In this document: piece after piece, positions 8,496 to 48,680 of the stretch | Layout of the letters: the number at the start of each line of letters is the position of its first letter | Numbering within the stretch: position 1 is the stretch's first letter | NCBI GenBank assembly: GCA_020201335.1 | Contig: JAIVGZ010000039.1 | Coordinates: forward strand, 1 to 50,929 | Origin: Natronospirales bacterium | GTDB lineage: Bacteria; Pseudomonadota; Gammaproteobacteria; Natronospirales; JAIVGZ01 | Reading direction: 5' to 3' | DNA length: 50,929 nt | Program-made: the position numbers and the translations under genes | Notes under the pieces: generated by a model | Seen by the model: only the letters and a program-made list of their open reading frames with translations | The model's database searches: none | Told to the model about the DNA's origin: nothing

Positions 8496-8524
8496 ACTAT
8501 AGCTTATAGATGGCTTTTCACCAA
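8496..8524 (-). promoter_or_regulatory. Candidate sigma-70 promoter for fimV
   Basis: On the minus strand TTGGTG (8519-8524) and TATAGT (8496-8501) are separated by 17 bp. The -35 box lies inside the last codons of asd. Predicted start of transcription is near 8489, leaving a leader of about 50 bases. Confidence 0.45.
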
Positions 8525-9404
8525 TGTTTCCGCAATCTGGACCGCATTGAGGGCGGCGCCCTTCCTCACGTTGTCCGCGACGACCCACATCAGCAGGCCA
8601 TTTTCGCGGCTTGGGTCATCCCGGAGGCGCCCGACGAAAACCCCGTCATTGCTGGCCGCGTGGCCGACCGGCGTCGGATATCCACCGGGTCCCCGGGCGT
8701 CGACGACCACGACCCCCGGGGCCAGGGCCAGCAACTCACGGGCCCGCTCGGCCCCCAGCGGACGCTCCGTCTGTACCGATACCACTTCCGAGTGGCCAAA
8801 GAACACCGGGATGCGGACCGCGGTCGCGGCGACCGGCAAATCGGGGAGGTCGAGGATCTTGCGCGTTTCGCGCGTAATCTTCATCTCCTCGCGGGTGAAG
8901 CCATTCTCCTCAAATGCGTCGATGTGCGGAATCGCGTTGAACGCAATCTGCACCGGAAACGCTTCAGGCTCGCCCGCACCCTGGCCGTTCAACAGGCTGG
9001 CGGTCTGGCCGGCCAGTTCGTTGACGGCCGCGCGGCCGGCGCCCGACACCGCCTGATAAGTTGCGACGCCGACATGGCGCAGACCTGCGGCATCGGCGAG
9101 CGGCTTCAGCGCGACGACCAGTTGGATTGTCGAGCAATTCGGGTTCGCGATGATGCGCTTCGCGCGCCATCCGGCGATTGCGCCTGGGTTCACCTCCGGC
9201 ACGACCAACGGCACTTCGTCGTCGTACCGCCACCTTGAGCTGTTGTCGATCACGATACTCGAGGCGCGAACCTGCCGAGTTTTCACTTGCGAGCAGAAAT
9301 ACTTCGCCGAGCGGCAGCGTCGATGTAGCAAGCGCCTCAATCATCGCTTCACCGACGAGGCCGGTGGCGCCGAGGATGGCTATGTTGTATGTGCGTTCGT
9401 TCAT
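8504..9404 (-). pseudogene. asd: Aspartate-semialdehyde dehydrogenase, disrupted by internal deletion and frameshift
   Basis: Asd makes L-aspartate-semialdehyde for lysine/diaminopimelate, threonine and methionine, and is normally essential. The 5' part (ATG at 9404, MNERTYNIAILGATGLVGE, ending ...SENSAGSRLE) is in one frame. From about 9257 the protein continues in another frame (IVIDNSSRWRYDDEVPLVV) with the catalytic Cys motif NPNCSTIQ and runs to a TAA at 8504. In family members roughly 40-45 residues separate these two segments; here they abut, so about 130 bp is missing and the frame changes. A single-base error cannot explain it. It is either a true deletion, with another asd elsewhere, or an assembly fault. 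Confidence 0.85.
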
Positions 9405-29952: not shown

Positions 29953-30723
29953 TTAGATACCGTACGCCAACCTGAGCAGCTTGAGTGGATGTTGTGGTGC
30001 AGAACCGTCATTAAGTCCATGCGCGATCTGTGTGCCGGCCATCGGGCAATCAGAAGCGTAATGGTCGGCCTCAGCGTTCGCCACGCGGTTGAACACCGGT
30101 TTGCCGATTTTCATCGCGGTAGCGTGCGTCTCGCTCTTCACCGCGTAGGTGCCGTCGTGGCCCGAACAGCGCTCAATCGGCTCGACGACGGTGTCCTGCA
30201 CAAGCTGCAGCACTTCGCGCGTCTTCAGGCCGATGTTCTGCACGCGCAGGTGGCACGCGACGTGGTAGCTGACCTTGCCGAGGGCCGTGGTGAAATCGGT
30301 GCGTAACTTGCCCGCACGGTGGCGCAGCATCAGGTACTCGAACGGGTCGAACATCGCGTCGCGGACCTTCGCTACTTCCGGGTCCTCCGGGAACATCAGC
30401 GGCAATTCCTGCTTGTACATCAGCACGCACGACGGTATCGGCGCGACAAGGTCGAAACCGTCGTCGACCAGCTTAGCGAGGCGCGGGATGTTGAACTCCT
30501 TGAGCGCCCGCACCGACTCCAGGTCCCCGAGTTCCATCTTCGGCATACCGCAGCAGCGTTCGTCCGGCGTCAGCACCATCTGGATGCCGTTGTGCTCGAA
30601 CACGGCGACCAGGTCCTCGCCGATGTCGGGCTCATTGCGATTGCAATAGCAAGTCGAGAACAGCGCGACCTTACCGGTCGTTTCGCCGGCGGGCTCCGGC
30701 ATTCCACGGATGCGGTGGAACAT
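29953..30723 (-). pseudogene. CCG-domain iron-sulfur protein, 3' fragment (heterodisulfide-reductase-like)
   Basis: The C-terminal 256 codons of a heterodisulfide-reductase-related protein. Two CCG-type cluster domains are seen: CYCNRNEPD to ERCCGMPKME, and HVACHLRVQNIG to ERCSGHDGTYA. The second has CSG instead of CCG, which is usual for this family. An ATG at 30723 (MFHRIRGM) could start it, but that start lies inside the preceding 5' fragment in another frame. In full-length homologs about 85-90 residues connect this part to the N-terminal ferredoxin-like part; these are missing. It may still be expressed by coupling, but I treat it as a broken gene. Confidence 0.7.
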
Positions 30724-31006
30724 ACGGACACTTCGTCATGTAGCACATGTCGCAGAGGTAGCATTCGTCGATGACCTTCCAGTAGTCGTCGCGCGCGACC
30801 CCATCGACTTCCATCGACTTAGAACCGTCGATCAGGTCGAACAGCGTCGGGAAACTGTTACACAGCGAAAAGCAGCGGCGACAGCCGTGGCAGATGTCGA
30901 ACACCCGCTCAAGCTCGCCGAACAGTTTTCCCTCGTCGTGGAAATCCTTGTTCTGCCAGTCGAGCGGGTGCCGGGTCGGCGCGTCGAGGCTACCTTCGCG
31001 AGACAC
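30671..31006 (-). pseudogene. Iron-sulfur protein, 5' fragment with two 4Fe-4S motifs
   Basis: The N-terminal part of the same protein, from a GTG at 31006. It holds two 4Fe-4S binding motifs, CHGCRRCFSLC near residue 40 and CYLCDMCYMTKCPYVPP near residue 82. After PHPWN the frame runs into nine unrelated residues and stops at 30671. In relatives that motif is followed by a segment like (N/D)FPHLMLR; here the sequence jumps directly to the region before the first CCG domain in another frame. The start lies 6 bp after the rubrerythrin stop, so the two are cotranscribed. Confidence 0.72.
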
Positions 31007-45432: not shown

Positions 45433-46550
45433 TGAGAATAGCAATCCTTTCGCGCAACCCGCGGCTTTATTCGACCCGGCGGCTCATCGAGGCCGCGACC
45501 GAGCGCGGCCACGAAACGCGCGTGCTTGACCCGCTGCGTTGCTACATGAACGTCGCGACCAGCCATCCCGAAATCCATTTCCGCGGGCAGAAAATCGAGG
45601 ATTACGACGCAGTAATCCCCCGCATCGGCGCATCGATCACGTTCTATGGGACCGCGGTGCTCCGGCAATTCGAGATGCTCGGCACCTTCCCGCTGAACGA
45701 GTCGGTCGCAATCAGCCGCTCCCGAGACAAGCTGCGCTCGATGCAGCTCCTGTCGCGCAAGGGCATCGGCATGCCTGTCACCGGCATCGCGCACTCCCCC
45801 GACGACACCGACGACCTCCTTAAGCTGGTCGGCGGCGCACCGGTGGTAATCAAGCTGCTCGAGGGCACGCAAGGCGTCGGCGTTGTGCTCGCTGAGACGC
45901 GCCAGGCGGCGGAGAGCGTGATCGACGCATTTCGCGGCCTTAACGCGCACTTCCTCGTGCAGGAATACGTGAAGGAAGCTGGCGGCGCCGACATCCGCTG
46001 CTTCGTCATCGACGGCAAGGTTGTCGCGTCGATGAAGCGGCAGGGCAAGGAAGGTGAGTTCCGCTCGAACCTGCACCGCGGCGGCAGCGCCGAGCTGGTG
46101 CGTATCACCCCAGTCGAACGCGCGACCGCCGTGCGAGCGGCGGCGGCGGTCGGCCTCAACGTCGCGGGCGTCGACATCCTGCGCTCCCGGCACGGGCCGG
46201 CGGTGCTGGAAGTCAATTCTTCGCCCGGCCTTGAGGGCATCGAGAACGCGACGAAGAAGGACCGCAATCCACGGCGACGAAATAAACGGCATCGAAATCA
46301 TCCGTCGGCTGCTCAGCCTGCCGCAGCTGAAGCGCATGCGAGGCACGCTGCTCGCCGTGCCGATCGTCAACATCTTCGGCGTACTGCACCAGACCCGGTA
46401 CCTGCCCGACCGGCGGGACCTGAACCGGAGCTTTCCGGGCTCAGAGCGCGGCTCGCTCGCTGCGCGGCTCGCATACGTATTCACGCACGCGGTGCTGGCG
46501 CACGCGTCACACGCGATCGACCTCCATACGGCAGCCGCGCATCGCACTAA
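45432..46550 (+). CDS. rimK: RimK-type ATP-grasp ligase with aberrant C-terminal tail
   Basis: Glutamate ligase that modifies ribosomal protein S6. The first 277 residues are normal Rim[19 protein letters not shown], the ATP-grasp lid [37 protein letters not shown], and the metal-binding [12 protein letters not shown]. After ATKKD (about 46260) the family's last 20-25 residues are missing and the frame continues as a basic, low-complexity tail of 95 residues read out of frame from the next gene. The ATP-grasp core is intact, so some activity is possible. The scar is described with the next entry. Confidence 0.82.

Positions 46551-47166: not shown

Positions 47167-48680
<1,514 letters not shown>

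Follow-up and report, generated by a model that had tools for sequence, protein, structure and literature searches.

The window analyzed here, a stretch of 50,929 bases that forms the entire contig C48 of genome G000, carries on its minus strand an asd gene (about 9403-8507) that is broken into two reading frames meeting at 9251-9263. In bacteria with diaminopimelate in the cell wall asd is essential. The locus raises the question whether the organism has lost part of this gene or whether the break arose during assembly.

Structure of the asd break

The upstream part of the gene (9251-9403, minus strand) extends from the NADP-binding GATGLVG motif to LEYR and matches positions 1-46 of the 121 in PF01118 and 3-56 of the NCBIfam model PRK14874. 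Its translation, NERTYNIAILGATGLVGEAMIEALATSTLPLGEVFLLASENSAGSRLEYR, represents the NADP-binding end of the protein and closes with SAGSRLEYR. The downstream part (8507-9262, minus strand) lies in another frame, begins with SIVIDNSS and reads SSIVIDNSSRWRYDDEVPLVVPEVN, with NPNCSTIQ further on and LVKSHL at the end. It contains the NPNCST active-site motif and the dimerization domain, covering PF02774 completely (1-184 of 184) and scoring 328.1 bits with asd_B, while its match to PRK14874 (82-344) takes in some out-of-frame padding before the join. With E-values of 4e-106 and 6e-13 against Asd families, the similarity of the pieces is more than chance. Two elements of a functional asd_B enzyme are thus present, the GATGxVG NADP-binding motif in the 5′ piece and the NPNCS active-site cysteine motif with the PF02774 dimerization domain in the 3′ piece, but a single continuous frame including the LFSAGG region was not found. 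The gene is flanked by an MFS transporter family gene on one side and by an open reading frame on the other that we read as fimV-like.

The extent of the loss is directly visible in comparison with related genomes. Among 101 asd loci, 11 fitted a narrow motif pattern, and alignment with these intact relatives left 39 columns empty in the window gene. With a wider pattern, to which 13 of the 101 loci gave no match, the distance from GATG to VIDN was 82 codons (246 nt) in 86 of the 88 loci measured and 83 codons in the other two. In the window this distance is 118 nt, which gives a net loss of 128 nt, or 42 codons and two bases, located at the join (9251-9263, minus strand). The preliminary description had reported that a segment ending in SAGSRLE meets IVIDNSS in a different frame with about 40-45 conserved residues skipped, and both observations are borne out. 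By our reading as many as about 10 bases could be shared between the two sides of the join. Further disabling mutations, as would mark a natural pseudogene, were not found in asd; both pieces are free of stop codons and score as normal Asd.

The pristine state of both parts would be compatible with their production as one protein through ribosomal frameshifting, or with a split enzyme. However, the approximately 42 missing codons include the LFSAGG stretch that is conserved in intact relatives, and because these codons are absent no recoding could restore a normal enzyme. The chance that such a mechanism operates is negligible.

Search for a second asd and for pathway genes

The preliminary description also offered a second asd as an explanation. 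In the assembly of G000 (1.83 Mb, 77 contigs, 84.75% complete), PF02774 matches once, at the window gene, so that another asd dimerization domain is directly seen to be lacking there. PRK14874 matches the two window pieces and gives one additional weak match, which we take for ArgC. A search with the missing asd segment alone gave no match in G000, but it was run without a positive control and shows little. Because about 15% of the genome is missing, a working copy could lie in the unassembled part and the window gene could be its decaying duplicate. This would leave the other joins described below unexplained, and we regard it as extremely unlikely.

Other steps of the same pathway are represented by aspartokinase on C31 and dapB on C60. 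The assembly gave no match for homoserine dehydrogenase, the enzyme acting on the product of Asd, which by itself counts against an artefact. It gave none for rpoB either, and the rpoB search missed this gene in 8 of 20 genomes, G000 included. As rpoB is missing too, the absence of homoserine dehydrogenase points to plain incompleteness.

Further joins in the same contig

Inspection of coding frames pointed to three more joins in the window. In a gene for an Fe-S oxidoreductase with a cysteine-rich domain (join at 30640-30780, minus strand), the open reading frame 31012-30674 is joined to that at 30735-29956 with a change of frame and a loss of about 280 nt. The distance from KCPYVPPH to (K/H)VALF is 61 nt in the window and 339 nt in locus L201, the one relative where it was measured exactly; five others have a similarly long segment after KCPY. 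At the boundary between rimK and a succinylglutamate-desuccinylase-like (deacylase) gene (46255-46270, plus strand), about 235-270 nt are absent. Here rimK leaves its family at model position 277 of 300, the following gene begins at AIHGDEING without its N-terminus, and the SPGLEG-to-HGDE distance is 49 nt as compared to 284-319 nt in all six relatives examined. In ettA (47986-47994, plus strand) the first piece matches the family profile up to position 277 and the next, in another frame, from position 326 onward. At the syntenic locus of six relatives the MQAELE and EA(N/K/R)G motifs are 50 residues apart, and the net loss in the window is 151 nt.

All joins on the contig are free of N. By our reading those whose limits can be set (ettA, rimK and asd) are close to blunt, with about one shared base in ettA and at most about two in rimK. 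There is no decay beside the joins: 18 of 20 other window open reading frames that were scanned match their families essentially end to end, one of the remaining two having no match and the other being a GGDEF/EAL protein with matches at the domain level only. A CTCGAG sequence found at both the asd and the ettA join was considered as a shared motif and dropped, as the window contains 39 copies of it and the other two joins have none. Any other finding on this window that involves the regions 30640-30780, 46255-46270 or 47986-47994 should regard them as suspect.

Joins on other contigs

The same type of defect is directly seen in unrelated genes elsewhere in G000. An acetoacetate-CoA ligase gene on C77 (L131:4252-6398) shows a jump in the profile match from position 475 to 499/500 with a change of frame and a loss of about 100 nt, and pntA on C45 (L124:18856-19812) has lost about 70 residues (about 210 nt) in frame relative to 4izh. 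This brings the total to six joins, with losses of 128, about 280, about 235-270, 151, about 100 and about 210 nt, and the frame is changed at four of the five that lie within one gene. The defect is not everywhere, as carB and valS are unbroken, and so are two more long genes that resemble those of aminoacyl-tRNA synthetases.

A codon-frame scan covered 235,627 bases of G000 outside the window, of which 2,935 belong to a contig that reads N throughout, and flagged 10 candidates there and one in the window. The scan is weak in that it flagged only one of the four known window joins. No candidates appeared in 400,000 bases of the relative G001, a contrast that we do not use as proof because of the lower G+C content (0.59) and possibly weaker coding signal of that genome. 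Family scans of ten pairs from 13 candidate sites identified one true join (the acetoacetate-CoA ligase), seven pairs without a family match and two pairs of ordinary neighbors, namely Ku/LigD and pntA/pntB, with the internal loss in pntA itself. The genes for Ku and LigD, the bacterial end-joining proteins, overlap and appear complete (L126:473-3759, on C55).

The same genes in related genomes

A match to asd was obtained in 29 of 30 genomes, G000 included, and only in G000 were abutted halves found inside a contig. For ettA, 13 relatives have a full-length gene, and partial copies occur in G015 and G018. RimK reaches model position 291-298 in all 15 relatives with a match, compared to 277 in the window. 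Relatives are intact at the genes that are broken on the window contig, as would be expected for an artefact.

In five relatives (G006, G014, G015, G017 and G026) asd is cut at contig ends. These ends fall in the first 130 residues of the protein, at about 36, 48-87, 51, 89 and 130 (L023, L024, L026, L029, L030 and L031), and in several further relatives asd lies close to a contig end. That contig ends fall inside asd in these genomes is possibly a coincidence. In G006 the cut spans residues 48-87 and falls between two contigs, near the segment missing here, and it was considered whether the assembler leaves a fixed k-mer signature. This idea was dropped because the other joins lose different lengths.

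Origin of the joins

From its assembly figures and the nature of its relatives, G000 is taken for a metagenome bin. Runs of N occur in 3 of 20 sampled stretches, with lengths of 25, 55, 78 and 158 nt, and resemble scaffold gaps whose length was estimated. They lie in a gene that is pilV-like by eye (L119:10732-10786), where a proline/glutamine repeat tract ends (L119:15630-15654), within an Nramp-type transporter gene (L121:5837-5994) and in an unnamed gene (L122:1207-1284). With frames chosen by eye, the frame is not kept across two of the three N runs that could be placed in frame, which is how gaps with only an estimated length would behave. The run in the Nramp gene could not be sized against a solved Nramp structure, as the part after it gave no match. 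The joins cannot be put down to a simple stripping of every N from the scaffolds, since other parts of the bin still contain N runs.

In view of the above, the break in asd is very probably an artefact of assembling this bin, in which contig ends, or the edges of a scaffold gap that was closed badly, were put together with the intervening sequence left out. Such a step would drop roughly 100-280 nt that are present in the real genome and, at asd, would leave two otherwise undamaged parts of the gene, each in its own frame. Six clean losses without N and without other decay, together with N runs elsewhere of which two of three are off frame, are what abutted ends or misclosed gaps are expected to produce. 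The nearly blunt joins are more easily explained by abutted ends than by a collapse at repeats. We infer that the step at fault was scaffolding or gap closing; a literature search on gap-closing errors found no matching paper. The suggestion of an assembly error in the preliminary description is supported because unrelated genes on this and other contigs carry similar N-free losses. Counting against an artefact is that the joins contain no N, so that some step must have given seamless sequence, and a molecule with a real deletion would look identical.

A real 128-nt deletion allele in the sampled population should be considered for the same reason. Cells carrying it would use imported diaminopimelate and amino acids, or live beside sisters with the intact allele. 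The up to about 10 bases that may be shared at the asd join and the presence of Ku and LigD, which could make near-blunt deletions, are consistent with this. However, it requires that about six unrelated conserved genes suffered fresh, similarly sized deletions at the same time without any other decay, it conflicts with the established essentiality of asd where the wall contains diaminopimelate, and aspartokinase and dapB are retained. A deleted allele, also proposed in the preliminary description, found no positive support and we consider it very unlikely. Even more far-fetched is a population in which asd, ettA, rimK and further genes have truly undergone clean deletions, for example through Ku/LigD end joining, and which survives by cross-feeding in place of making diaminopimelate itself.

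In the organism asd is most likely intact, and the break, although real in the sequence, very likely has no counterpart in the cell. The earlier term deletion scar is probably wrong as biology, and as biology the break is probably without importance. It does call for caution, because conserved genes in this bin lack about 100-280 nt with neither a visible seam nor any N at the join, and reads are needed before gene loss or auxotrophy is claimed from it.

Comparison with known systems

The window gene resembles Asd of the asd_B type (TIGR01296 / PRK14874) in its GATGxVG and NPNCST motifs and its full dimerization domain, and the closest solved relative of its C-terminal part is 2qz9. It differs in lacking 128 nt after LEYR and in the change of frame, which leave no complete product readable. 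According to Cooley and Wright 2024 (PMC11017572), assembly errors account for many apparent pseudogenes in bacteria and inflate pseudogene counts. The frame-broken genes in this draft assembly are similar to the spurious pseudogenes described there; the present case may differ in the size of the losses, about 100-280 nt.
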